A stretch of DNA of 59,855 bases from Flavobacteriales bacterium. GTDB taxonomy: Bacteria; Bacteroidota; Bacteroidia; Flavobacteriales_F; PHOS-HE28. Position 1 is the stretch's first letter, and each line of letters opens with the position of its first letter. The notes beneath the pieces were generated by a model that saw nothing but the letters and a program-made list of their open reading frames with translations, was not told the DNA's origin and did no database searches. Positions 1-29,358 of this stretch are shown here, one piece after another. Position numbers and translations under genes: made by a program. The stretch covers positions 1-59,855 of the forward strand of contig JAGNUG010000009.1 of assembly GCA_017987115.1 (NCBI GenBank), given 5' to 3'.

Positions 1-3000
1 TACCGCCCGTCGCAACGGTCACGCTACCGCTCAAGGTGGCGGTGGCATTGTTCGCGCAGAGGGTTTGATCGGCACCGGCGTTGGCCGTCGGTGCAGGTGT
101 GATGCTGTACGTCACCTGGTCGCTCACCGCGTTGCAGTTGCCATTGCCAACAGTGGTCAAGGTCAAGGTGACCGTACCTGCTGTGCGCTCTGCAGCACTT
201 GGCGTATAGATCGCGGTCAAGGTCGCGTTGTTCGGGCTGTAGGTTCCCGTTCCGCCGCTCCACACAGCACCAGTCGCACCACTTTGCGTACCGGCCAAGG
301 TGATCGCGCTATTGTTCGCGCACACCGTTCCGTTCGGACCAGCATCCACAGAAGGAGCAGGCGTGAAGGTGATCACGCGGCTGCTCTGTACCGGGTTGCA
401 CGTACCGTTGCCGGTGCTCGTCAAGGTCAAGGTCAGCGTACCGCCCGCGATCTCCGCAGCGGTCGGCGTGTAGGTCGCATTCAAGGTGGAATTGTTCGGG
501 CTGTACGTTCCCGTTCCACCGCTCCACACACCACCGGTCGCTCCACTTACGCTACCGTTCAAGCTCACTTGTGCGTTGTTCGCGCAGAGCGATATCGCGG
601 CACCGGCGTTCACCACCGGAGCAGGTGTGAAGTTGATCGTCATCTGATCGGCCACGGCGACGCAGTTGCCGTTACCGGTCGTTGTCAATGTCAAGGTCAC
701 GGAACCGTTCGCGATCTCCGCAGCCGTTGGCGTGTAGATCGCTCCCATGTTCGTGGTGCTCGGATCGAAGGTGCCGTTGCCGCCGCTCCACACGCCGCCC
801 GTTGCGACAGCGAATGAACCGTTCAAGGTAACAGCTGCGTTGTTCGCGCAGACCGTGCGATCAACACCTGCATTGGCGGTCGGTGTGGGTGTGATCGTGA
901 AGGTCACCGCCTCGCTAACAGCGTTGCAGGATCCGTTGCCGACCGTGGTCAAGGTCAAGGTCACCGTGCCTGCCGCACGCTCCGCAGCGCTCGGCGTGTA
1001 CAGCGCGTTCATCGTTGCGTTGTTCGGGTTGTAGGTTCCTGAACCACCGCTCCAGATCGCACCTGTGGCAACGGTGAAGGCACCGTTCAAGGTGATGTTG
1101 GCGTTGTTGGAGCACACGCTCGCATCCGGACCGGCGTTGGCCGTAGGTGCTGGCGTGAAACTGATCGTACGATTGCTCGAGACCGGGTTGCACAAGCCAT
1201 TACCCGTGCTCGTCAAGGTGAGCGTCACCGTACCCGCGGCCAGTTCGGCAGCGCTTGGCGTGTAGGTCGCGTTGAGCGTTGTGTTGTTCGGGTTGTAGGT
1301 TCCCGATCCACCGCTCCAGGCACCGCCTGTTGCACCGGACACACTGCCGTTCAAGCTCACCAAGGAATTGTTCGCGCAGAGCGTGATGGCCGCACCGGCA
1401 TTCACCACCGGCGCATCGGTGATGGAGATCGTAATCTGATCGGCAACAGCGCTGCACGATCCGTTTCCGGTCGTGGTCAAGGTCAGCGTTGCGAAACCGT
1501 TCGCGATCTCCGCCGCGCTCGGCGTGTAGATCGCTCCCATGTTCGTGGTGCTCGGATCGAAAGTGCCCGCTCCACCGCTCCACACACCGCCGGTAGCGAC
1601 CGTGAAGGAACCGTTCAAGGCGACAGCCGCGTTGTTCGCGCACACCGTGCGGTCGGCACCGGCATTGGCCGTAGGCGAAGGCGTGATCGTGAAGGTCACG
1701 TTGTCGCTCACCGCATTGCAATTGCCGTTGCCAGCCGTCGTCAACGTCAGCGTAACGGTACCCGCCGTGCGTTCAGCAGCGCTCGGCGTGTACACCGCGT
1801 TCATCGTGGAGCTGTTAGGGTTGTAATTGCCCGTTCCACCACCCCAGATCGCGCCCGTCGAACCGGTGAACGATCCGTTCAACGTGATCGCGCTGTTGTT
1901 CGCGCACACTGTTGCATTCGCACCGGCATCCACCGTTGGAGAAGGCGTGAAGGTGATCACGCGGCTATCGGATACTGCAGTGCAGTTACCGTTGCCGGTC
2001 GTCGTCAATGTCAAGGTCAACGTTCCAGCAGCGAGCTCCGAAGGGGTCGGCGTGTAGGTTGCGTTGAGCGTGGTGTTGTTCGGTGTGAAGGAGCCCGCGC
2101 CACCGCTCCAGATACCACCGGTCGCAACGGTCACCGATCCGCCCATGGGCACCGCGGCGTTGTTGCGGCACAGCGAAAGATCAGGACCAGCGTTCGCGGT
2201 CGGACTTGGCGTGTAGTTGATCTGTACTTGATCCGTAACTGCGACGCAGGTACCGTTGCCCGTAGTGGTCAGCGTGAGCGTCACGTTGCCGTTCGCGATC
2301 TCCACCGCCGTCGGCGTGTAGGTCGCGTTCATGTTCGTGGTGCTCGGGCTGAAGGAGCCATTCCCGCCGCTCCAGATACCGCCGGCCGCAACGGTGAAGG
2401 ACCCACCCAGGCTTGCGATCGCGTTGTTGGAACACAGCGACTGGTCCGCACCGGCATTCGCCGTTGGTGCAGGCGTGATCGTGTAGGTGACCGCATCGCT
2501 TACTGCGTTACAGTTGCCGTTACCAGCGGAAGTCAGCGTAAGTGTCACGGTCCCGGCAGCACGTTCGGCAGCGGTCGGTGTGTAGGTCGCAGTGAGCGTA
2601 GTGTTGTTCGGCGTGAATACACCCGCGCCACCACTCCAGATCGCGCCGGTCGCACCGATCACGGATCCGTTCAAACTGATGATCGAGTTGTTCGTGCACG
2701 CCGATCCATCCGGACCAGCATTCACGATCGGCGAAGGCGTGAAGGTGATCACCTTGCTGCTCTGCACCGGATTGCACGTGCCGTTGCCGGTGCTCGTCAA
2801 CGTCAGCGTCAACGTGCCTCCGGCGATCTCCGCAGCGGTCGGTGTGTAGGTCGCGGTGAGCGTGGTGTTGTTCGGGTTGTATGTACCCGTTCCGCCGCTC
2901 CATACTCCACCCGTCGCACCGGATACGCTACCGGTCAAGCTCACCTGAGCGTTGTTCGCGCAGAGCGAAACAGCAGCACCCGCATTCACGACCGGCGCAG

Positions 3001-6000
3001 GCGTCAGCGTGATCGTCATCTGATCGGAAACAGCCGTGCAAGTGCCGTTACCCGTTGTCGTCATCGTCAAGGTCACCGATCCACTGGACACTTCCGCGGC
3101 GCTCGGCGTGTAGATCGCACCCATGTTCGTGGTGCTCGGGTCGAAGGTGCCAGCACCACCGCTCCAGATACCACCGGTCACAACGGTGAAGGAACCCGCG
3201 AGCGCAACGGCCGCGTTGTTCGCACATACCGTGCGATCCACACCCGCATTCGCTGTCGGAGCAGGCGTGATGCTGAAGGTCACTTGGTCACTGACCGCGT
3301 TGCAATTGTTGTTGCCAGTGGTGGTCAAGGTCAGTGTCACGGTACCCGCGGTGCGTTCAGCAGCGCTCGGTGTGTACACCGCATTGATCGTGGTGTTGTT
3401 CGGGTTGTAGGTACCCGTTCCACCGCTCCAGGAAACACCCGCTGAGCCGGTGAACGCACCGTTCAAAGTGATCGCGCTGTTGTTCGCGCAGACCGATCCG
3501 TTCAAGCCCGCATCAACGGTCGGTGATGGAGTGAAAGTGATCACGCGGCTATCAGTAACCGCAGTGCAGTTGCCGTTGCCGGTCGTGGTCAAGGTCAGCG
3601 TCAACGTACCAGCGGCGAGTTCCGCAGGAGTTGGTGTGTAGGTCGCGTTGAGCGTGGTGTTGTTCGGCGTGTAGGATCCGGAACCACCGCTCCAGATCCC
3701 ACCGGTAGCAACGGTCACGGATCCGCCCAAAGCGAAGCTTGCGTTGTTGCGGCACAGGGAAAGATCCGCACCTGCATTTGCACTAGGCGATGGCGTGAAG
3801 GACAATTGCACTTGATCCGTTACCTGGATGCAAGTGCCGTTACCGGTCGTGGTCAAGGTCAATGTCACAACACCGCTCGCGATCTCCGCAGCGGTCGGTG
3901 TGTAGGTCGCGTTCAGGTTCGTGGTGCTCGGAGCGAAAGTGCCTGCACCACCGCTCCAGATACCGCCGGTCGCCACCGTGACCGATCCACCCAAGGAGGC
4001 GACCGGGTTGTTCGTGCACAGCACTTGATCAGCTCCCGCGTTCGTCGTGGGCGAAGGTGTGATCGTGTACGTGACCGCATCACTTACTGCATTGCATGTG
4101 CCGTTGCCAGCAGAGGTCAATGTCAAGGTCACCGTTCCGGCTGCGCGTTCAACAGCGCTCGGCGTGTAGACCGCATTAAGCGTGGTGTTGTTCGGGTTGT
4201 AGGTGCCCGTTCCACCGCTCCAGATACCACCGGTGGCACCGATCACGGAACCAGCCAAAGTGATGATCGAGTTGTTGCGGCAAACACTTCCATCAGCACC
4301 AGCATTCACGATAGGAGCTGGTGTGAACGAGATCACCTTGGTGCTCGTGACCGGGTTGCAGGTGCCGTTGCCTGTGCTTGTCAAAGTGAGCGTCAACGTG
4401 CCAGCAGCGATCTCCGCTGCGGTCGGGGTGTAGGTCGCGATCAACGAGGTGTTGTTCGGGTTGAAGGTTCCTGTTCCTCCGCTCCAGATGCCACCGGTGG
4501 CGCCCGTCACACTTCCATTCAAGGACACTTGTGCATTGTTCGCGCAGAGCGAAACAGCAGCACCGGCATTCACCACAGGAGCCGGGGTGAAGGCGATCGA
4601 CATTTGATCGGCGACAGCCACGCAGCCACCGTTCCCGGTGGTCGTCAACGTGAGCGTCACGGATCCGCTGGAGATCTCACCGGCCGTCGGGGTGTACTGC
4701 GCACCCATGTTCGTGGTGCTCGGGTCGAAGGATCCCGCTCCACCGCTCCACACACCGCCAGTAGCGACCGTGAAACTTCCGTTCAAAGTGACGACAGCGT
4801 TGTTCGCGCACACCGTGCGATCCGCACCCGCATTCGCAGTCGGTGCTGGTGTGATGGTGAAGGTCACCTGGTCATTCACCGCGTTACAATTACCGTTGCC
4901 GACCGTGGTGAGCGTGAGGGTCACCGCGCCAGCAGTGCGTTCCGCAGCGCTGGGTGTGTAGACTGCATTCAAAGTGGTGTTATTCGGCGCATACGTGCCA
5001 GTACCTCCGCTCCAAGTAGCCCCGGTCGCAACAGTGATCGAACCCGCGAGTGTGATCGCCGCGTTGTTCGCACATACCGTCGCGTTCGAACCAGCATCAA
5101 CGGTCGGTGCAGGCGTGATCGTGATCACTTTGCTGCTCGTTACCGCGATACAATTGCCGTTGCCGGTGGAGGTCAAGGTCAGCGTAACGGTACCGGCCGC
5201 GATCTCCGTAGCGCTCGGTGTGTAGGTCGCATTGAGCGTGGTCGCGTTCGGGTTGAAGGATCCGGAACCACCGCTCCATGCACCGCCTGTTGCACCGGTC
5301 ACGCTTCCGTTCAGTGCCACCTGCACGTTATTCGCACAAACGGAAACAGCTGCCCCGGCACTCACAACAGGAGCTGCCGTAAAGGACAAGAGGACTTGAT
5401 CGGTCACGGCAACACAACCGCCATTACCGGTGGTCGTCAACGTGAGCGTGACGGATCCGCTGGAGATCTCGCCAGCAGTAGGTGTGTACTGCGCACCCAT
5501 GTTCGTGGTGCTCGGGTCGAAGCTGCCAGCACCGCCGCTCCAAACACCGCCAGTGGCCACGGTGAACGAACCGTTCAGCGTAGCGACCGCGTTGTTCGCG
5601 CAAAGGGTTTGATCGGCACCGGCGTTCGCTGTCGGAGCCGGTGTGATCGCGTACGTGACGTTGTCGCTGACGGGATTACAGGTTCCGTTGCCGACCGTAG
5701 TTAGCGTTAGTGTCACCGTGCCCGCGGTGCTTTCCGCAGCACTCGGCGTGTACACCGCATTCAGCGTAGCGTTGTTCGGTGCGTAGGTGCCCGTTCCGCC
5801 GCTCCAAACCGCGCCGGTAGCACCAACTTGCGAACCCGCCAATGTGATCGTCGCATTGTTCGCGCAGACCGAACCATTGGGACCGGCTTCCACGGTTGGG
5901 GCCGGAGTGAAGCTGATCACCTTGTTGCTTGTCACCGGCACACAAGTACCGTTGCCCGTGCTGCTCAATGTCAGTGTCTGTGATCCTGCCGCGATCTCCG

Positions 6001-6940
6001 CTGCGGTCGGTGTGTACGTTGCGTTGAGCGTGGTATTGTTCGGCGTGTAGGATCCGGCACCGCCGCTCCATGCACCACCGGTCGCACCAGTGACAGAGCC
6101 GCTCAAGCTGACAAGTGCATTGTTCGCGCAGAGCGAAACCGCAGCACCTGCATTCACCACGGGTGCCGCAGTGAAATTGATGAGTACTTGGTCATTCACC
6201 GCAACGCAATTACCGTTGCCGGTCGTGGTCATCGTCAAGGTCACCGAACCACTGGAAACCTCTGCAGGATCGGGCGTGTATTGCGCTGACATGTTGGTGG
6301 TGCTTGGATCAAAGGACCCCGCACCGCCGCTCCAAACACCACCCGTTGCAACAGTGAACGAACCGTTCAATTGCACCACGGCATTGTTCGCGCAACGCGT
6401 TTGATCCGGGCCCGCACTCGCCGTGGGTGAAGGCGTGAACGTCACGAGCATACTGTCCGGAACAGCGCTGCACACACCGTTCCCGGTAGATGTCAGCTTG
6501 ATCCATACTTGACCCGCCGTCAGTTCGGCTGCGGTCGGCGTGTACGTAGCATTGAGATTGCTGTTGCTCGGCAGGAACGCACCGGCGCCACCTGTCCAAA
6601 CACCGCCAACGGCATTCAACACGGAACCGGCCAATTGCACCACGGCGTTGTTCCGGCAAATGCTTTGATCAGGTCCCGCATCAGGGATCGGCTTCGGACT
6701 GAATGTGACGACCATCGCGTCATCAACCGGCTCACATGGACCCGTGGAGGTCAAGGTCAACGTGACCGTACCGATCGCAAGGTCACCGATGCTCGGGTGA
6801 TACGTGGCATTAAGTGCAGTTTCGCTTGGTGCGAATGTCCCACTGCCCGTTGTTGTCCATATGCCCGTCGTGCTTCCACCGGAAACGGTTCCCGTAAGAA
6901 TTACACTATCGCCTGCACAACGCGTTTGATCCGCACCTGC
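1..6940 (-). repeat. Hierarchical tandem repeat: 264-bp unit, 792-bp higher-order unit, 1584-bp block
   Basis: The motif encoding CANN recurs at an exact 264-bp spacing; on the plus strand TTGTTC-like copies start at 48, 312, 576 and 840, and in phase at 6384 and 6648. A marker TTCGTGGTGCTCGG starts at 750, 1542, 2334, 3126, 3918, 4710 and 5502, with a diverged copy at 6294. These are exact 792-bp steps, so units of three subtypes alternate in fixed order. Unusual variants (CRNN at about 2159 and 3743; the neighbours at about 2423/4009 and 2687/4273) repeat at about 1584 bp, showing that a six-unit block was itself duplicated. Copies differ mostly at third codon positions. The array continues past the left edge. 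Confidence 0.93.
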
Positions 6941-8326
6941 GCTGATATCGATACGACCGGAGAATTCCGAGAAGAAGCCGTAGCGACACCCCGAGGTTGC
7001 CCCTCCATTGATGATCGCCAACGAGAACACATCGCTCGTGTTGCTGACAATGAACGCCTGGTTCACCGGCACTTGTGTGGTGTTGTATTGGATACGTGCG
7101 GCCATCCACTCTCCTCCTGTACCAGGAACAGTAATGAACGCGGAACCCGGTATCGTTGCCGTACCGGGTCCAGCTACCACGAAGTTGTTTTGTGATCCGT
7201 TCCTCACCAATAGGTTCAAGAAGAAAGACTCGCTTGTACTTCGCGTGAAACTCAGTTGCGTGCTACCCGCGCAATTCAGCGGTGGTAAGATGGCCATCCC
7301 TTGCTCGCAGCCGAATCCGGTCACGTGGATGGCATAGAGAGGCTTGGAACCACTTACATACGTAGCGTTGTTCGCCGCGGCGGACAAGTAGTCCATGTCG
7401 TGCCGGTAGTACTGACCTGCGAAGAGCGTGGCCACTGGTGTGGCGTTACCATCAATGTAGACCTGCGTGTTGTTCTGCACGGCCATAACGAAAAGTGATT
7501 CGTCGCCCGTAGCATTCAGCGCACCTTTCACCGCCACGTAATCCGTGCCGAGGATGTTCACCGGAACGATCTGATCCAACATCAGATCATAGCAACCGCC
7601 CGATGGGTTGTGGTCACTGTCGTCTTTTAGGGAGATGGCGACCGGCTTGTCCGACAACACCACCGCGCCCGAAGGGTGGGTCGCGGGATCCGTCTGGTTC
7701 AAGCCCGTCCATGCACAGGAATAGGTCTGGCCCTGGTTCAGTGTTACGGTAAAGGGCGTGAGTGCCGGATGGCCATCCACCGGCACCGGCGAATAGATCA
7801 TCACCAAGGTCCCGTTCTCCGTGGCGACGATATCAAATGACGCATATGCCTGATTCGGCGCGCTGTAACCATGATTGTAGAAAGGCGCATGCTTGTGCAG
7901 TGGGATGTAGAACTCCGTGCCTAAGCCGTTGGCTCCTTTTAGCGCAGCAATGTCCGCATTGTTCGAGAAGCTCGGTTCGTAGTAGCACGTGATGTTCGCC
8001 GTGGCAGAGATGCGCAATCCGGTATTCAACACCGTGTTCGTAGGACGCGTCTCCAAGGAGGCCTTCAAAGACGTGAGGTCATAACGCTGGGCAGAGTTGG
8101 CGGCCAGGTTCAACACGATCGGCGTGCCGCCGTTGAACCCGGCGTTGGCCGGCTGCGAAATGGTGACCACCGCAGGTTGCCCCAACGTGGTAACGTTGAT
8201 GAAGATCGGTTGATCCCCATGCGATGAGGTGACCTCCGGGGGTGCTAGCCAGAATTCTGTTCCAGTTTGTGCTTGGAGGTACCCGGTCAAGAGTATTCCA
8301 AGCACGAGTATCAGTGCCTTTTTCAT
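1..8326 (-). CDS. Giant secreted IgGFc-binding-like / PKD-like repeat protein (C-terminus beyond window)
   Basis: The reading frame stays open from the ATG at 8326 to the left edge, giving at least 2775 residues with no stop. Residues 1-20 form a signal peptide (MKKALILVLGILLTGYLQAQ). Residues about 22-465 begin GTEFWLAPPE and resemble the IgGFc-binding N-terminal domain of Bacteroidota surface proteins. From about residue 465 onward there are 27 PKD/Ig-like repeats of about 88 residues. Each carries an AGxDxTxCANN motif, a GGxWSGGxG motif, TLNATYTPxAAE, and a run like VTLTLTTTGNG. The first two repeats are divergent; the others follow a three-type order. Such proteins are usually T9SS cargo with a sorting domain at the far C-terminus, which lies outside the window, so export by T9SS is inference. 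A role in adhesion or surface-layer structure is plausible but not shown. The long open frames on the opposite strand are shadows of the repeats. Confidence 0.9.
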   Translation of the reverse strand, partial: MKKALILVLGILLTGYLQAQTGTEFWLAPPEVTSSHGDQPIFINVTTLGQPAVVTISQPANAGFNGGTPIVLNLAANSAQRYDLTSLKASLETRPTNTVLNTGLRISATANITCYYEPSFSNNADIAALKGANGLGTEFYIPLHKHAPFYNHGYSAPNQAYASFDIVATENGTLVMIYSPVPVDGHPALTPFTVTLNQGQTYSCAWTGLNQTDPATHPSGAVVLSDKPVAISLKDDSDHNPSGGCYDLMLDQIVPVNILGTDYVAVKGALNATGDESLFVMAVQNNTQVYIDGNATPVATLFAGQYYRHDMDYLSAAANNATYVSGSKPLYAIHVTGFGCEQGMAILPPLNCAGSTQLSFTRSTSESFFLNLLVRNGSQNNFVVAGPGTATIPGSAFITVPGTGGEWMAARIQYNTTQVPVNQAFIVSNTSDVFSLAIINGGATSGCRYGFFSEFSGRIDISAGADQTRCAGDSVILTGTVSGGSTTGIWTTTGSGTFAPSETALNATYHPSIGDLAIGTVTLTLTSTGPCEPVDDAMVVTFSPKPIPDAGPDQSICRNNAVVQLAGSVLNAVGGVWTGGAGAFLPSNSNLNATYTPTAAELTAGQVWIKLTSTGNGVCSAVPDSMLVTFTPSPTASAGPDQTRCANNAVVQLNGSFTVATGGVWSGGAGSFDPSTTNMSAQYTPDPAEVSSGSVTLTMTTTGNGNCVAVNDQVLINFTAAPVVNAGAAVSLCANNALVSLSGSVTGATGGAWSGGAGSYTPNNTTLNATYTPTAAEIAAGSQTLTLSSTGNGTCVPVTSNKVISFTPAPTVEAGPNGSVCANNATITLAGSQVGATGAVWSGGTGTYAPNNATLNAVYTPSAAESTAGTVTLTLTTVGNGTCNPVSDNVTYAITPAPTANAGADQTLCANNAVATLNGSFTVATGGVWSGGAGSFDPSTTNMGAQYTPTAGEISSGSVTLTLTTTGNGGCVAVTDQVLLSFTAAPVVSAGAAVSVCANNVQVALNGSVTGATGGAWSGGSGSFNPNATTLNATYTPSATEIAAGTVTLTLTSTGNGNCIAVTSSKVITITPAPTVDAGSNATVCANNAAITLAGSITVATGATWSGGTGTYAPNNTTLNAVYTPSAAERTAGAVTLTLTTVGNGNCNAVNDQVTFTITPAPTANAGADRTVCANNAVVTLNGSFTVATGGVWSGGAGSFDPSTTNMGAQYTPTAGEISSGSVTLTLTTTGNGGCVAVADQMSIAFTPAPVVNAGAAVSLCANNAQVSLNGSVTGATGGIWSGGTGTFNPNNTSLIATYTPTAAEIAAGTLTLTLTSTGNGTCNPVTSTKVISFTPAPIVNAGADGSVCRNNSIITLAGSVIGATGGIWSGGTGTYNPNNTTLNAVYTPSAVERAAGTVTLTLTSAGNGTCNAVSDAVTYTITPSPTTNAGADQVLCTNNPVASLGGSVTVATGGIWSGGAGTFAPSTTNLNATYTPTAAEIASGVVTLTLTTTGNGTCIQVTDQVQLSFTPSPSANAGADLSLCRNNASFALGGSVTVATGGIWSGGSGSYTPNNTTLNATYTPTPAELAAGTLTLTLTTTGNGNCTAVTDSRVITFTPSPTVDAGLNGSVCANNSAITLNGAFTGSAGVSWSGGTGTYNPNNTTINAVYTPSAAERTAGTVTLTLTTTGNNNCNAVSDQVTFSITPAPTANAGVDRTVCANNAAVALAGSFTVVTGGIWSGGAGTFDPSTTNMGAIYTPSAAEVSSGSVTLTMTTTGNGTCTAVSDQMTITLTPAPVVNAGAAVSLCANNAQVSLTGSVSGATGGVWSGGTGTYNPNNTTLTATYTPTAAEIAGGTLTLTLTSTGNGTCNPVQSSKVITFTPSPIVNAGPDGSACTNNSIISLNGSVIGATGAIWSGGAGVFTPNNTTLTATYTPTAAERAAGTVTLTLTSAGNGNCNAVSDAVTYTITPAPTANAGADQSLCSNNAIASLGGSFTVAAGGIWSGGNGSFSPSTTNMNATYTPTAVEIANGNVTLTLTTTGNGTCVAVTDQVQINYTPSPTANAGPDLSLCRNNAAVPMGGSVTVATGGIWSGGAGSFTPNNTTLNATYTPTPSELAAGTLTLTLTTTGNGNCTAVSDSRVITFTPSPTVDAGANATVCANNSAITLNGSFTGSTGAIWGGGTGNYNPNSSTMNAVYTPSAAERTAGTVTLTLTTAGNGNCNAVSDNVTFTITPSPTANAGADRTVCANNAAVALNGSFTVATGGVWSGGAGTFDPSTTNMGAIYTPSAAEIANGFATLTLTTTGNGSCSAVADQITISITDAPVVNAGAAITLCANNSLVSLNGSVSGATGGAWSGGSGTYNPNNTTLNATYTPSAAELAAGTVTLTLTSTGNGLCNPVSSNRTISFTPAPTANAGPDASVCSNNANITLNGAFTVATGAIWSGGSGTYNPNNATMNALYTPSAAERAAGTVTLTLTTVGNGSCNAVSEAVTFTITPTPTANAGVDRTVCANNAAVTLNGSFAVATGGVWSGGNGTFDPSTTNMGAIYTPTAAEIANGSVTLTLTTTGNGNCVAVADQMTINFTPAPVVNAGAAISLCANNAQVSLNGSVSGATGGVWSGGTGTYSPNNSTLNATYTPTAAEIAGGTLTLTLTSTGNGTCNPVQSSRVITFTPAPSVDAGPNGTVCANNSAITLAGTQSGATGAVWSGGTGTYSPNNATLTAIYTPSAAERTAGTVTLTLTTVGNGNCNAVSDQVTYSITPAPTANAGADQTLCANNATATLSGSVTVATGG

Positions 8327-8470
8327 TCCAGTAAGATCAATCCGGCCCATGAGTAGTGGACCGATGCCGTTCTACGGGAGTAATTTCTATTTGGTTACCA
8401 GAGCCGAATGCCATACTCGTACACCAAGAGTGGGTTTACTTTGGCGCGGCCCTTGCGGCAAGACTTTTGA

Positions 8471-11400
8471 ATGCGGCGCACTCTTCTATTACTCCTTATC
8501 GGCTTCCTCTTCGGTGTGCTCGCATGGACCGTGCATGAGCCGGATGCCGCCAATAGGGCTATAGAAGAATCGCAACGCATCCAGAAATTGATGGACCATA
8601 GCGCAGAAGCGCTGAATGGATCAGTAGATTCGGAACTTGCTTACCTCGAACAGAATGGTGCAGAAGAGTGGATGAGGGAACGTACCGCTTCGTTGTTAGA
8701 GGAACGGGAACGGAATGGGGCCATCTACTTCGGTCTGGATGAGGACAGCTTGGTCTGTTGGACCGGAACTCCCCCTATGGAATCAAGCTTGTTCCGAGGG
8801 GAAATGAGCAGCCATCTAAAACTTTTCAACGGCCTATACATTCATGCTTCAGCGCGCGACGGAAACCTGGAAATGCACGCGCTTCGACCGATCTGGTCAA
8901 CTCCACCGATGGAGAACCGCTATATGCAAAGCGGGTTCCATCATTCGTTGAACGCACCACAAGGACTATTCGCGATGTTGCTCGGGACGGAAGGCCCCGA
9001 AGTGCGGGATGCATCTGACAAGACGATGTTCAGGGTGGCTTGGCGCGATGGGGCACTTGAACTGGGTAACTGGGTCTGGATGCGCCTTACGCTTGCATCG
9101 CTGGCCATAGCCTTTTGTATTGCAGCCCTTTGGCACTGGGCCATGCAATGCGTTATCGCTGGGAATCGCTGGTCCGGCATACTCTTGTTCGGCGGGATAT
9201 CCTTGGCCTTTCGGCTAATGTATCTATACTGGGCGCCGGAATCTTCCCTGAACCGTTTATTATTTTTCGACCCTGCGCTCTATGCCGCTTCTGCACGCTT
9301 CCCTTCATTGGGAGACCTCTTCATCAATGCATCGCTCCTTGCGCTGATCGCTGCTTTTATCAGGACAGCACTACGTCGTGGCACCAACTCCTTGATCCGA
9401 CCTCTCCATCTCGCAACCGGTTTTTCAATAAGCCTCATTCATGCTGCGTGGATCACACATCTATTCATCGGCCTTGTCAATGATAGTAGCGTGGACCTTG
9501 ACCTTTATCATGTCCAAGAACTCAGCTCGATCAGTGCGCTAGCATTGCTGTGCGTAGCACTGCTTTTCGGTTCATGGGTGTTGCTCACATCAGCGATCCT
9601 TGAGCAGGTCATACCCAACACACCGTTAAAGATCATTGCACTCACGGGTGGTTTTGTTCTTGGCCTGAGCATAGTAGTGCACCACTTGGTCGGGGTCTAT
9701 GATACGCTCCTGTTCCTTTGGCCCGTGCCCTTGTTCTTCGTTCTATTATGGGGCATTGACCGCACTCCGGGTTTTGGAAAAGTTTTGCTCGGTGTCGCTT
9801 TGGTAGCGGGCATAAGCGCTCACGTTCTTACGAAATATACACGCAATCGGGAACACCGCGAAAGGCAGGTCCTTGCTGAACGACTGGCGGTGCGCGAAGA
9901 CCCTGTTGTGGAGTTGATGTTCCGGGAATTGGCACCCCGGTTACGTGCAGCAGATGACCTGTATGGCATGCTCAGCGGGCTATCACCTTGCGGTTCAGTA
10001 GAGTTGGATCAACGTGTACGTCAGCGTTTCTTCAATGGATATTGGGAACGATACGATGTTCGCTTGTTCGCATTTGACCCGGATGGACAGGCTCTGTGTG
10101 CGACCGACCCGGATCCGCCGAAAAGTTTCGGGAGTTCACAGAGCGCCTTCACATTACCCACGGTCGCGGTGGACATGCCTGACCTCTTCATGCAGGAACA
10201 GCCTGGACAAACTGCCTTCTACCATGCAAGGGTTGCCGTAATGCCGAATGACAGTGCGGCTCCTGCACAATTGGTGATCGAACTGCACCCTCGTTCCGCA
10301 TCTCAAAGCTTAGGCTTCCCAGACCTCTTGTTAAGCGGCGATGACCCGTTGATGCGCCGTGCGGATAGATACGTAGTTGCGCGTTACGAAAATGGAGCAC
10401 TAGTGGACCGTTCGAGCAGAACGCCATATTCGTTGCATTGGGACCGAGACCTTGATGAGAACGGACTTCTCTGGTATACCGATGGGGGGTACGAACAGCT
10501 CGCGATCGGTGACCCGAATGGAACATTATTGGTCCTTGGTCTGCTTGAACCGGACCTGACGGATCAAGCGACCACCTTCAGTTACCTCTTTGCCCTTTTC
10601 AGCATCCTTGTAGCATTGGTATTCCTATTGGATACGACCATCCGCTCTAACGGAATTCCCCCAATGGGCATTGGAGCAAAAGTGCGTGTGGCACTGGGTT
10701 TTTTCGCTTTTGTGGGCCTGGTGTTCTTCGGTGTAGGTACGCAACGATTGCTTACGCGCCAATTCACGCAACGGTTCGAAGCCATGATCCTTGAAAAGGC
10801 GCGTTCCGTTCACGCTGAATTGCAGCAGAAATTCATAGGGGAACCTGAGCTGAACAGTGATCACGCAGCCTATTTGGACCACCTCCTGAGCAGAGCCAGT
10901 AATGTATTCTTTACGGACATTACGCTATACAATGTGCACGGCTCGCTGCTCGCCACATCACGTCCACAGATCTTTGCTGCCGGTCTTCTTGGTGACCGAA
11001 TGGATCCAGTGGCATATCGTAACATGGTGCTGAACAATGCCAGCTCGTTCGTGCATGAAGAAGCCATCGGCAATGCTAAGTTCCTGTCCGCATATCTGCC
11101 GCTTCGTGATCGGAACGGACACGTGTTGGCCTACATCGCGCTACCGTCGTTTGCTGATCAAGCTCAACAGGAAGATGAGCGCAATGGTGTATTGATCGCA
11201 GTTGTTAATCTCTTCGTACTGCTCTTTGCATTAAGTGTTCTTGTCGCCGTATTCATCAGTAATTGGACAACAAGACCGCTTGATCTTTTGAAACGGTCCT
11301 TGAGTGCGGTAGCTCTTGGCGGTGCAAATAGACCGATCCGTTATCGCGGGCAGGATGAAGTTGGACAACTCGTTGATGTATACAATCGCAAGGTGGATGA

Positions 11401-12106
11401 ACTGCGTGAGAGTGCCGAAAAATTAGCGCGCAGTGAACGCGAGACTGCATGGCGTGAAATGGCCCAGCAAGTAGCTCACGAGATCAAGAACCCGCTGACA
11501 CCCATGAAGCTGAGCATTCAACATTTCCAGCGCACTTGGACACCCGATGCACCAGATGCAGAAGCGAAGTTGGAACGCTTCAGTACGGGCATGGTACAGC
11601 AGATCGAAGCATTGAGTGGTATTGCCAATGCGTTCGGTGATTTCGCTCGGATGCCGCGCGCCAAACCAGAAGAACTCGACCTCGGAGAGGTCGCTGAAAT
11701 GGCGCTTTCCGTGTACAACGGAACGCCGAACGTCAACTTCGAATTGGAACGGGATACGACCATCCAATTACCCATCAGTGCCGATCGCGAGCAACTCCTG
11801 CGCGTATTCAACAACCTGTTGAAGAACGCCATGCAAGCTGTTCCCGATGAACGTACGGCCCATATCTCGGTAACACTACGCCGGGAAAAAGCCCATGCTG
11901 TCGCTGAGGTAAAGGACAATGGGATAGGCATAGCAGAAGCAGACCGCGACCGCATATTCCAGCCGAACTTCACCACCAAGAGCAGCGGCATGGGCCTCGG
12001 CCTTGCAATGGTGTTGCGCATTGTTGAGGCTGCTGGCGGCACGGTAACATTCAATACGGAAGAAGGCGTGGGAACAACATTCGTTCTGAAGCTGCCGTTG
12101 AGATAA
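8471..12106 (+). CDS. NtrY-like multi-pass membrane sensor histidine kinase
   Basis: This 1211-residue protein is a membrane-bound sensor kinase that should phosphorylate a response regulator not encoded next to it. Residues 1-20 form an N-terminal membrane anchor. An outer segment follows, then about six or seven hydrophobic helices (about 200-470), a second outer-facing region (about 480-690), two more helices (about 695-760), a further sensory region, and a last helix (about 905-930) leading into a HAMP linker. The HisKA motif AHEIKNPLTPMKLS places the phospho-acceptor His near residue 1002, and NPLTPMKLS is typical of the NtrY branch. The HATPase domain has DNGIGIAE, a short F-box (IFQPNFTT) and GMGLGLAM. 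It appears monocistronic: the divergent giant gene lies 144 bp upstream and a short gap precedes the crotonase. The sensed signal is unknown. Confidence 0.88.
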   Translation: MRRTLLLLLIGFLFGVLAWTVHEPDAANRAIEESQRIQKLMDHSAEALNGSVDSELAYLEQNGAEEWMRERTASLLEERERNGAIYFGLDEDSLVCWTGTPPMESSLFRGEMSSHLKLFNGLYIHASARDGNLEMHALRPIWSTPPMENRYMQSGFHHSLNAPQGLFAMLLGTEGPEVRDASDKTMFRVAWRDGALELGNWVWMRLTLASLAIAFCIAALWHWAMQCVIAGNRWSGILLFGGISLAFRLMYLYWAPESSLNRLLFFDPALYAASARFPSLGDLFINASLLALIAAFIRTALRRGTNSLIRPLHLATGFSISLIHAAWITHLFIGLVNDSSVDLDLYHVQELSSISALALLCVALLFGSWVLLTSAILEQVIPNTPLKIIALTGGFVLGLSIVVHHLVGVYDTLLFLWPVPLFFVLLWGIDRTPGFGKVLLGVALVAGISAHVLTKYTRNREHRERQVLAERLAVREDPVVELMFRELAPRLRAADDLYGMLSGLSPCGSVELDQRVRQRFFNGYWERYDVRLFAFDPDGQALCATDPDPPKSFGSSQSAFTLPTVAVDMPDLFMQEQPGQTAFYHARVAVMPNDSAAPAQLVIELHPRSASQSLGFPDLLLSGDDPLMRRADRYVVARYENGALVDRSSRTPYSLHWDRDLDENGLLWYTDGGYEQLAIGDPNGTLLVLGLLEPDLTDQATTFSYLFALFSILVALVFLLDTTIRSNGIPPMGIGAKVRVALGFFAFVGLVFFGVGTQRLLTRQFTQRFEAMILEKARSVHAELQQKFIGEPELNSDHAAYLDHLLSRASNVFFTDITLYNVHGSLLATSRPQIFAAGLLGDRMDPVAYRNMVLNNASSFVHEEAIGNAKFLSAYLPLRDRNGHVLAYIALPSFADQAQQEDERNGVLIAVVNLFVLLFALSVLVAVFISNWTTRPLDLLKRSLSAVALGGANRPIRYRGQDEVGQLVDVYNRKVDELRESAEKLARSERETAWREMAQQVAHEIKNPLTPMKLSIQHFQRTWTPDAPDAEAKLERFSTGMVQQIEALSGIANAFGDFARMPRAKPEELDLGEVAEMALSVYNGTPNVNFELERDTTIQLPISADREQLLRVFNNLLKNAMQAVPDERTAHISVTLRREKAHAVAEVKDNGIGIAEADRDRIFQPNFTTKSSGMGLGLAMVLRIVEAAGGTVTFNTEEGVGTTFVLKLPLR

Positions 12107-26832: not shown

Positions 26833-29199
26833 CTAGCGCGAAACAAGAACCTTGGTGTTACACTTAAAACTTCCGGACAGGTCACTGGCGAAGATCAAAT
26901 ACACACCGGTGCTTGCCCGATTCCCTGCCATGTCATTACCATTCCAAATGGCCTGACCACCAAGCGAGGTCGTGCGGTACACCAAGTTCCCACTAACATC
27001 CGTGATCTTTACTTCACTATCCCGCACCAACCCGGTTATTGCGATCGGTCCTGTATAGTTCGGTGCAACGGGATTCGGAAAAACCTTGGCACAATCACTA
27101 TCGTTACTTCCATCGACCGCATCACTTCGATAGCTCATGATACCGCGGTCCGTTCCAAAGAAGACATCGCCGGTAATCTCGTTCACGGCAATGTCAATAA
27201 TATTATCGCTGGGTAACGGACTATTGGCGGCCGTGAAATGATGGATCTCCTCCTGTCCATCGGATGAGATCAGAAACGCACCGCTTGTCTGGGTGCCGAT
27301 CCATTTACGATCCGCACCATCAACCGCGATCGCGCTCACCGATTCCGTTTCCAACAACAGTTGTGTGTTACCATCCTGCTCGATCAGGATCTGTTGCGCA
27401 TCGAAGCCTTCACTGTCAAATACGGAAGAGGGATTATAGAAAACCGCGACCCCTTTATTCGTACCGATCCAGATCTGACCCTCTTTATCTTCAGCGAAAC
27501 AGTAAACATCCTGAGATGGAAGTCCCCCCTGCCCTTCGATATTCGTAATCAGCTTATAGCGATCATCCCCTGTGTCCAGTATGCTGTTTCCGGGATCGAA
27601 TACCAGTAGTGAATTTCCACGTGGACGAATGACCCAGACATATCCATTGGATGCCGCAAGAATATTTCCAACTAGGGCATTGCCGTTCAAGATCGCGCCA
27701 GGGTCGAACCCCTGCCATTCACCATTCTTCGTATAAACCTGAACGGGTCTGGAGGTATTTGCATTCGAGATCCAGAGGTTTCCTTCCTTATCATAGCTGA
27801 GCCCACCGACATTCACTTTTTCCGGATCATTATTGGTTTCTGCTAGCAATGAACTGTTCTGGTTATTGTAGAATCCAATAGGGACCCTGTCGCGAAATTC
27901 GATCAACCCTTCTTCCCATGATCCGGCAAAAGCATGATTAGGGTCCTTTGGATCAACGGCAACTGATACCACATCATTCACCGCTCCCCCATAACTATTG
28001 GCACCAAGCATTAATGGCGTATTGTCGCGGTCAAATGACATCCAATTTCCGTCCACGTAATTATATAGTCCATCCTTGAGGAAAGTATTGGTCCAATTAC
28101 CCGCCAAGGCACCGCTGGAAACATATACGGCATTTCCACTTGCTGTCAAGGAATGCACGGATGTATGTCTTGGGCCATTCGGAAGGATGGAAGTCCCAAC
28201 ACCATAACCTTCGCCGCGCACAAGACCTATTTTTTGGTCTGCGACCCAAATAATACCATTCTCGCCATGAATGGCCTGTGAAGCCCTTACCTCCGTTCCT
28301 TCATATCCGTATTGAGGTGTCACTTCATCCAGTACCGTGTTCATCCGTTTTATGTCTGTTCTGTGCGCAATAACCACGAACTGTCCATCAAATGAAACAT
28401 TCAAGTTATGATTCTCTCGTCCATATAGCGGCTGAAATGGTTGAAAAATGCCCGAATCGTCCAGTACCAGCAGCGTGTCAGAATCCATTGCGGCCCCGTC
28501 AAAATTCAAAAGCAGCTTTCCTCCAAAGTTCACAACATCGTTGAATGGGCCATTGGACATAGGAGATCCCATGTCAGTGCGTTTGTGCCAATTATCAAAT
28601 GCCGCCAAGTTGGCTGCGTTACGCCAAGCACTGAATAAGCCGGATCGCGTAGCGGCATAGATCGAATCTCCGTAGAATGCAACGCCCGTTACTTCAACTT
28701 GGGAGCCGCCTGGACCAATGAACCAGGTATCCTGCACCTCTCTACCGACCAGGTCGACCTTAACGATCCCGAACCCACAGCTCAAATACGCCGTAGCGCC
28801 CTCGAAGTGGATGCCATAAATGCCCTTGTCGCCCAGGATCGTACTGCGCTTGATGTCATTCATATTATAGCTCGTTCCGCCTTGTATCAGGTCCAAATTC
28901 CCATTGGAATAATACACCACCAACATGCCTAATGGTTCATTCCATGCAATTCCTTGGACCCCTACGTCATTCAATGCATTGACTTTGTTCAAGCGTTCGA
29001 TCTCTCCGGCCGTGGGGTCATATTTGAAAAGTCCCGTTGTAGTAGCACAATACACATTACCACCACCAAGAGCTACACCGATGGTATTGCGATAGGGTAA
29101 ATGATCTTGCCATTGACCGATCGGAGTGGTCTGTGCAAGCGCGCCGACCGGGTCAAGAAGAACAAATAAGAATACGAACAGGGTTGATTTGAGCGTCAT
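26833..29199 (-). CDS. porZ: PorZ-like type IX secretion beta-propeller protein
   Basis: From the ATG at 29199 the protein has 788 residues and a signal peptide (STLFVFLFVLLDPVGALAQ). A longer frame from 29349 adds 50 residues that break the signal peptide and runs close to the tRNA. The start GQWQDHLPYRNTIGVA, with YCATTTGLFKYD, matches PorZ of the T9SS. Two seven-bladed propellers are expected, and the repeats IWIGTNKGVAVFY and RKWIGTQTSGAFLI recall two-component-regulator propellers. The tail (VFPNPVAPNY, NLVYRTTSLGG, ASTGVYLIFAS) is a C-terminal sorting-like domain. In the known system PorZ helps the attachment complex handle A-LPS and the sortase. It is cotranscribed with recO. Confidence 0.88.
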   Translation of the reverse strand: MTLKSTLFVFLFVLLDPVGALAQTTPIGQWQDHLPYRNTIGVALGGGNVYCATTTGLFKYDPTAGEIERLNKVNALNDVGVQGIAWNEPLGMLVVYYSNGNLDLIQGGTSYNMNDIKRSTILGDKGIYGIHFEGATAYLSCGFGIVKVDLVGREVQDTWFIGPGGSQVEVTGVAFYGDSIYAATRSGLFSAWRNAANLAAFDNWHKRTDMGSPMSNGPFNDVVNFGGKLLLNFDGAAMDSDTLLVLDDSGIFQPFQPLYGRENHNLNVSFDGQFVVIAHRTDIKRMNTVLDEVTPQYGYEGTEVRASQAIHGENGIIWVADQKIGLVRGEGYGVGTSILPNGPRHTSVHSLTASGNAVYVSSGALAGNWTNTFLKDGLYNYVDGNWMSFDRDNTPLMLGANSYGGAVNDVVSVAVDPKDPNHAFAGSWEEGLIEFRDRVPIGFYNNQNSSLLAETNNDPEKVNVGGLSYDKEGNLWISNANTSRPVQVYTKNGEWQGFDPGAILNGNALVGNILAASNGYVWVIRPRGNSLLVFDPGNSILDTGDDRYKLITNIEGQGGLPSQDVYCFAEDKEGQIWIGTNKGVAVFYNPSSVFDSEGFDAQQILIEQDGNTQLLLETESVSAIAVDGADRKWIGTQTSGAFLISSDGQEEIHHFTAANSPLPSDNIIDIAVNEITGDVFFGTDRGIMSYRSDAVDGSNDSDCAKVFPNPVAPNYTGPIAITGLVRDSEVKITDVSGNLVYRTTSLGGQAIWNGNDMAGNRASTGVYLIFASDLSGSFKCNTKVLVSR

Positions 29200-29358
29200 G
29201 GATAGTAGAGCGGGCTTTGCTGTGAACGCAATATATCGCCGATCGGTATGGGCCAAGGTAATTTCAAGGATTGGATCATCAACTATTCTTGAACTTGATG
29301 AAGTACCTATGCTACTAAAATCGAAATGCCCCGGATAATTCCGGAGCACTTCTTAGTG

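Follow-up and report, generated by a model that had tools for sequence, protein, structure and literature searches.

How a very long surface protein can keep a strict three-part repeat order over evolutionary time, and how its length can still change, are the questions raised by a gene at the very start of contig C35 in a Flavobacteriales MAG of 202 contigs (genome label G000). The window, meaning the whole stretch of DNA that was analyzed, comprises the first 59,855 bases of this contig, with base 1 being the contig start. A repeat array is carried on the minus strand by one reading frame (8350..2, 2783 aa) that is open at the contig start; the contig edge cuts the array, and of the gene for the giant surface protein only the 5′ portion lies in the window. 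The parts that could be delimited are as follows.

2..8350, minus strand: 5′ part of the giant gene, starting with the ATG at 8350; an in-frame ATG at 8326 agrees better with the starts of the orthologues
8270..8350, minus strand: signal-peptide-like N-terminus (aa 1-27 of the translation), followed by QTGTEFW; conserved in the orthologue alignment
6947..8269, minus strand: head, IgGFc-binding domain PF17517 (E 2.5e-34; 13 of 13 orthologues)
6686..6946, minus strand: unit 0, 87 aa, conserved N-terminal anchor unit (unit parsing and cross-species comparison)
6422..6685, minus strand: unit 1, 88 aa, conserved anchor unit preceding the trimer array (unit parsing and cross-species comparison)
5630..6421, minus strand: trimer 1 (A-B-C), from unit parsing and typing
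4838..5629, minus strand: trimer 2 (A-B-C), from typing; three Ig-like domains predicted, mean pLDDT 93
4046..4837, minus strand: trimer 3 (A-B-C), from typing; best match in the trimer comparison is trimer 5
3254..4045, minus strand: trimer 4 (A-B-C), from typing; best match in the trimer comparison is trimer 6
2462..3253, minus strand: trimer 5 (A-B-C), from typing and trimer comparison
1670..2461, minus strand: trimer 6 (A-B-C), from typing and trimer comparison
878..1669, minus strand: trimer 7 (A-B-C), from unit parsing and typing
86..877, minus strand: trimer 8 (A-B-C), from unit parsing and typing
5..85, minus strand: partial A unit of 27 aa, truncated where the contig starts and identical over that length to unit 26 of the orthologue in genome G016

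On the same contig, the divergent neighbor of the giant gene encodes a 1211-aa sensor histidine kinase (HAMP, HisKA, HATPase; window 8471-12106, plus strand), and a PorZ-like gene (PF21544; T9SS attachment machinery) lies at window 26833-29349 on the minus strand.

The array itself is extremely regular. From 6685 to 86, 25 consecutive units follow one another, each exactly 88 aa (264 bp) long with zero length change and each containing two cysteines and one invariant tryptophan; TRF reports a period of 264, and autocorrelation peaks at 1584, 792, 2376, and 264 bp. Mean nucleotide identity between units is 0.69-0.73 at offsets that are multiples of 3 and 0.53-0.64 at every other offset, and the best within-genome partners of a unit lie at offsets 3, 6, 9, and 12 in nearly every row. 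Averaged over the window genome, same-type units are 0.72 identical and different-type units 0.63, and the same-type excess of 0.092 compares with a maximum of 0.036 under permutation (20,000 label permutations, none as extreme). Leave-one-out profile typing assigned 24/24 units to the expected type. The original prediction of exact 264-bp units arranged in 792-bp trimers of three alternating types is thus borne out in full, with the order in the unit alignment being strictly A-B-C. It had also called for a 1584-bp block duplicated on top of the trimers, and here the outcome is divided. Locally, the pair of trimers at 4837-4046 and 4045-3254 matches the pair at 3253-2462 and 2461-1670 at 0.78 each, compared with about 0.72 elsewhere, but array-wide the excess of offset 6 over offset 3 is a marginal 0.025 (exact permutation p = 0.046). 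The 1584-bp hexamer comes down to one local duplication, spanning two trimers, with a marginal trend across the array in addition. The three types carry recognizable signatures, with position 81 aromatic in 99% of C units and position 79 Arg or Lys in 98% of B units, and the signature sites fall chiefly at positions 7, 16, 79, 81, and 83, in the first and last strands, and also at positions 40-44 and 55-57. Profiles built from the window genome alone recover the A-B-C order in nine other members of the genus with few deviations, the reading being less clean in the two shortest arrays (G024 and G018). The trimer period was not strong in the other giant frames of the window genome (contigs C184, C86, and C30).

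When two units were used to search the same genome, another array turned up where contig C43 ends, within a 2134-aa frame that is open at that end (L026:6649-13053, minus strand). In this frame, 88-aa units go on, their lengths grow more diverse, and after them come a pair of PKD domains and the sorting domain of T9SS type B (TIGR04131, E 9.1e-11, above cut-off; CHU_C, E 2.9e-15). The adjoining gene encodes PorP/SprF (TIGR03519, E 8.2e-46). C43 very probably carries the remainder of the window gene after a missing stretch, because its frame shares a C-terminal unit-length signature with the full orthologues (87 or 86, five of 88, 90, 85-87, 90, 88, 89, 90, 88-89, 87, 89, 88-89, 89) and because both broken ends match the G016 orthologue exactly: its unit 26 begins with the final 27 residues of C35, and its unit 40 ends with the first 28 residues of C43. 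Judged by G016, the gap would amount to about 0.74-1.26 thousand residues (8, 11, or 14 units plus 32 residues), and the whole gene to about 5650, 5916, or 6180 aa with 37, 40, or 43 central intervals. The assignment of the window protein to T9SS type B depends on this link between the two contigs. Contigs of three genomes (G000, G058, and G063) all end at the same point, after 26 full units, which may be a hint that strains differ in copy number at this site.

At the other end of the protein, the 441-aa head between the signal-like peptide and unit 0 matches PF17517 with 119 bits against a cut-off of 25.6 when scanned alone, as do the heads of all 13 orthologues; scans of the entire repetitive chain against Pfam and NCBIfam missed it. 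IgG binding is unlikely to be the natural role of this head in a water bacterium. Structure prediction for one trimer gave, with high confidence, three Ig-like domains in a row (mean pLDDT 93, pTM 0.72). The head model is poor (mean pLDDT 69), and a fold search with it returned no convincing match, a result that carries little information at this model quality. No Pfam family scored above cut-off for the trimer units, no relative appeared in a sequence search of solved structures with the window part, and a repeat segment, sought as an exact pattern, occurred in none of the viral contigs scanned. The genome encodes SprA (above cut-off; T9SS) and GldJ (gliding). The IgGFc head and the T9SS type B end on C43 agree with the giant surface protein that had been proposed from the array, its surface location being predicted. 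We consider it probable that the gene encodes a T9SS-secreted, outer-membrane-anchored fibrillar surface protein whose stalk grows in trimer steps. In such a protein, the IgGFc-binding head at the N-terminus would be exposed and held off the cell by a long rod of 38-62 Ig-like units, an Ig domain being about 4 nm long, and the distance from head to cell would differ between species in steps of one trimer. The C-terminus would supply the PKD domains and the type B sorting domain, the latter docking on the PorP/SprF encoded next door; type B proteins are known to bind PorP/SprF (PMC11205867). We infer the surface location, adhesion, ligand, rod length, and rod geometry of the protein from this arrangement.

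Comparison with relatives turns the trimer from a pattern in one gene into a unit of length change. Relatives of the head are encoded in 31 of 58 related genomes (named records are Flavobacteriales or Bacteroidota MAGs), 34 of the 58 belonging to the same genus. Ten congeneric genes are complete in one frame, with lengths of 6194, 6179, 5948, 5920, 5408, 5402, 5402, 5391, 4347, and 4083 aa. Counted from the first conserved unit to a conserved C-terminal marker, their central intervals number 43, 43, 40, 40, 34, 34, 34, 34, 22, and 19, and two genes from other families have 4 and 1. All twelve counts equal 1 modulo 3, corresponding to k = 14, 14, 13, 13, 11 (four times), 7, 6, 1, and 0 trimers. 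The gyrB/rpoB tree of the ten congeners requires at least five length changes, a number to be taken as a guide since the tree is weakly resolved in places; five multiples of three would arise by chance, with any step size allowed, with a probability of about (1/3)^5 = 0.004. On the evidence of these sequences, stalk length differs among species by whole trimers only. This variation is shown between species, from one genome per species. Several of the orthologues come from short-read MAGs, which could collapse near-identical copies, and the nearly closed orthologue genomes are only G010 (1 contig), G004 (4), and G024 (7). The ends of the stalk are one-to-one orthologous across the genus and the middle is not; as far as sequence comparison reaches, both ends of the predicted rod are fixed and only its middle changes. 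Stalk length thus looks stepwise and old, not freely variable. The orthologue in G012 (L117, G012:C64) has two extra 89-aa units near the C-terminus, in a block that is otherwise constant in the genus.

The age of the three types can be read from a tree of 124 units from six species. The types A, B, and C are, by this tree, older than the genus, because each forms one clade across species (support 94-96) while the species label changes 64 times. Amino acid identity is about 0.70 for same-type units between species, about 0.73-0.75 for same-type units within species, and about 0.59 for different-type units within species. Same-type units are therefore barely less alike between species than within them, and homogenization within genomes appears weak. 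Copies had been expected to differ mainly at silent positions, and same-type pairs indeed have a pS of 0.60 versus a pN of 0.18, with identities of 0.72/0.76/0.47 at the three codon positions. Scripted Nei-Gojobori-type estimates give these pairs a median dS of 1.15, a median dN of 0.20, and a dN/dS of about 0.17. Silent sites are near saturation, and the expansion is old. The first of two explanations offered by the original prediction, an old expansion under strong selection on the protein, is supported by the low dN/dS, by positional orthologues in another species, and by the single clade for each type.

Why whole trimers are gained and lost is the central mechanistic question. The simplest course of events would begin with one ancestral domain that gave rise to the three types before the genus diversified, after which the A-B-C trimer (264 aa, 792 bp) would have become the unit gained or lost through recombination between same-type units. 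In the window array, exact runs of at least 20 bp are shared by 30% of same-type pairs versus 7% of different-type pairs, so homology alone favors recombination in register. From these run frequencies, about 30% of events would be expected out of register, and by our own estimate the probability that five changes all fall in register is about 0.17. No pair of copies exceeds 0.90 nucleotide identity within any genome (the maximum in the window genome is 0.82), so no recent change has been caught and we infer the recombination step. The trimer could instead be kept by structural selection, either because neighbors must differ if misfolding by domain swapping is to be avoided or because domain faces fit only in the sequence A to B to C to A. 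We regard this as a possible but somewhat doubtful alternative. It is consistent with the protein identities, which in every species are 58-62% for neighbors versus 71-79% for same-type units three apart, and with the strong conservation of signature residues on the first and last strands; two papers also argue that adjacent homologous domains diverge so as to avoid misfolding (PMC4660218, PMC8201768). However, adjacent different-type pairs are as alike (0.595) as distant different-type pairs (0.59), nothing beyond the type order was seen, and the same data are explained by the recombination register, for which five in-register events have the probability given above. Selection on domain fit or on neighbor difference would add to the register effect that we favor. 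The natural series of k = 0, 1, 6, 7, 11, 13, and 14 offers a way to ask whether the step is set by recombination register or by domain-domain fit, and also bears on neighbor difference versus misfolding and on stalk length versus niche.

Among known systems, the protein is best placed with the fibrillar surface proteins of T9SS type B, as one whose stalk is a titin-like super-repeat. Its giant size, its C-terminal TIGR04131/CHU_C match, the adjacent PorP/SprF, and the T9SS and gliding genes of the genome recall known surface proteins of this type, for instance SprB-SprF of gliding flavobacteria; it differs in a stalk of 88-aa Ig-like units in an A-B-C super-repeat and in its PF17517 head. The SprB-repeat family was unmatched in Pfam scans of both gene parts, a weak negative given that the same whole-protein scans also missed PF17517. 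In Periscope Proteins (PMC8201768, PMC9704523), too, the head is N-terminal and sits on a rod of folded domains in tandem, the variable number of which sets the projection of the head; tandem folded domains of more than 50 residues with an N-terminal head are found here as well, with a predicted fold and a putative rod. Highly identical repeats are a defining feature of Periscope stalks (PMC8201768), whereas the DNA identity of the present units is low (0.72 same-type, 0.63 different-type, maximum 0.82). Additionally, Periscope Proteins change repeat number between close strains, and the change here is by triplets between species, with copies 59-79% identical in protein. The closest anatomical parallel, by analogy only, is the titin A-band (PMC10665226), in which FnIII types A, B, and C stand in a fixed order, the positional types are older than the duplications, and extension occurred in the middle with the ends conserved. 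Titin is, however, a muscle protein of eukaryotes, and its super-repeats comprise 7 or 11 domains of mixed folds. Our literature searches, a weak instrument given little subscription coverage, found no bacterial super-repeat of this kind. The stalks of fibrillar adhesins are usually discussed either as near-identical, fast-changing repeats or as diverged, static domains. This stalk is intermediate, being diverged, old, and under purifying selection and yet varying in length between species in exact triplets.

A homologue of the grappling-hook protein GhpA of Aureispira, used in predation, would be a different identity for the gene, and an improbable one. GhpA (Lien et al. 2024, as cited in PMC12421860 and PMC11205867) is likewise a T9SS protein of giant size whose stalk consists of similar Ig-like domains, and its base (9fly) is the best structural match of the predicted trimer, with a Z of 13.1 versus about 10 for the best unrelated Ig proteins and an alignment of 233 residues over three domains at an rmsd of 7.8. 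The C43 part matches GhpA by sequence (E 5e-37, sorting domain included), but this match is strongly biased by composition, and GhpA is not found when the stalk region is searched by itself. The window part likewise has no GhpA match by sequence, and the head shows no sequence relation to GhpA in a profile search at E up to 10; nor is there evidence of a heptamer here. Predation by GhpA users involves the T6SS (PMC11205867), whereas the T6SS sheath PF05943 is absent from the window genome and four related genomes of the genus in a scan whose control matches in E. coli.

The orthologue in G016 points to a further property of the stalk. Between the two genomes, DNA identity is 76% in gyrB (fourfold-site 0.45) and 82% in rpoB (0.50), 66-79% in the syntenic flanks, 64-74% in another stretch of the window, and 75% in the head (fourfold-site 0.39). 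In units 4-15, it reaches 92% (fourfold-site 0.77), and in the C-terminal block 90% (0.73). The rise occurs in-frame between units 3 and 4, near window 5900, and the fall between C43 units 18 and 19, with units 16 and 21 inside the high-identity region remaining low. GC content is 61% in the array and 56% in the head versus about 50% in the flanks, gyrB, and rpoB of the window genome; in G016, the array has 60.5% and the backbone 56-59%. That most of the stalk is about 90% identical while housekeeping genes, head, and flanks are 65-82% identical, together with a GC content about 10 points above that of the genome, indicates a probable exchange of the stalk between species, and import into the window genome would be the direction, because the array resembles that of G016 in GC and not its own genome. 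A weaker case is the pair G022/G012, with 95.5% identity in the C block versus 85.5% in gyrB and 88% in the head. Taken with the length series, these data lead us to propose, tentatively, a triplet-quantized stalk that has been in phase since before the genus and is traded between species, while the head and the membrane anchor stay with the lineage. A genuine exchange would mean that head and stalk form two modules, each evolving separately. It is very improbable that faulty assembly, through collapse, expansion, or chimera formation, produced the array or its high identity to G016: the genome is a MAG of 202 contigs, and contigs break within the array here and after 26-27 units in G058 and G063, but ten other genomes, one of them in a single contig, carry the A-B-C array uninterrupted in one frame; near-identical copies are lacking, assembler collapse or expansion being unlikely to yield saturated silent divergence; and identity to G016 varies per unit from 0.75 to 0.97, unlike a simple chimera.

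The second explanation originally offered, selection for DNA differences between copies that limit recombination, is the least credible of all, since the near-saturated silent divergence (pS 0.60) that would favor it is accompanied by shared exact runs that are longer than in synonymous-codon shuffles (mean 14.7 vs 11.4, 0/200 shuffles as high; longest 41 vs 25), by a same-codon identity of 0.50 against 0.42 expected from codon usage, and by array dS values (0.46, 1.03, 1.12, and 0.52 in four species pairs) that are not higher than those of the single-copy head (2.20, 1.23, 1.34, and 0.63).

Two further features of the window genome were observed along the way. Its branch on the gyrB/rpoB tree is about three times longer than those of its congeners, and its GC content is about 50% versus 56-65%, as if it were evolving faster or under a different regime. 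It also encodes two giant frames of a simple 79-80-aa period class, one of 2999 aa that runs off its contig end (L028, G000:C86:1-9000) and one of 2711 aa with a T9SS-type end (L029, G000:C30:50000-60920).
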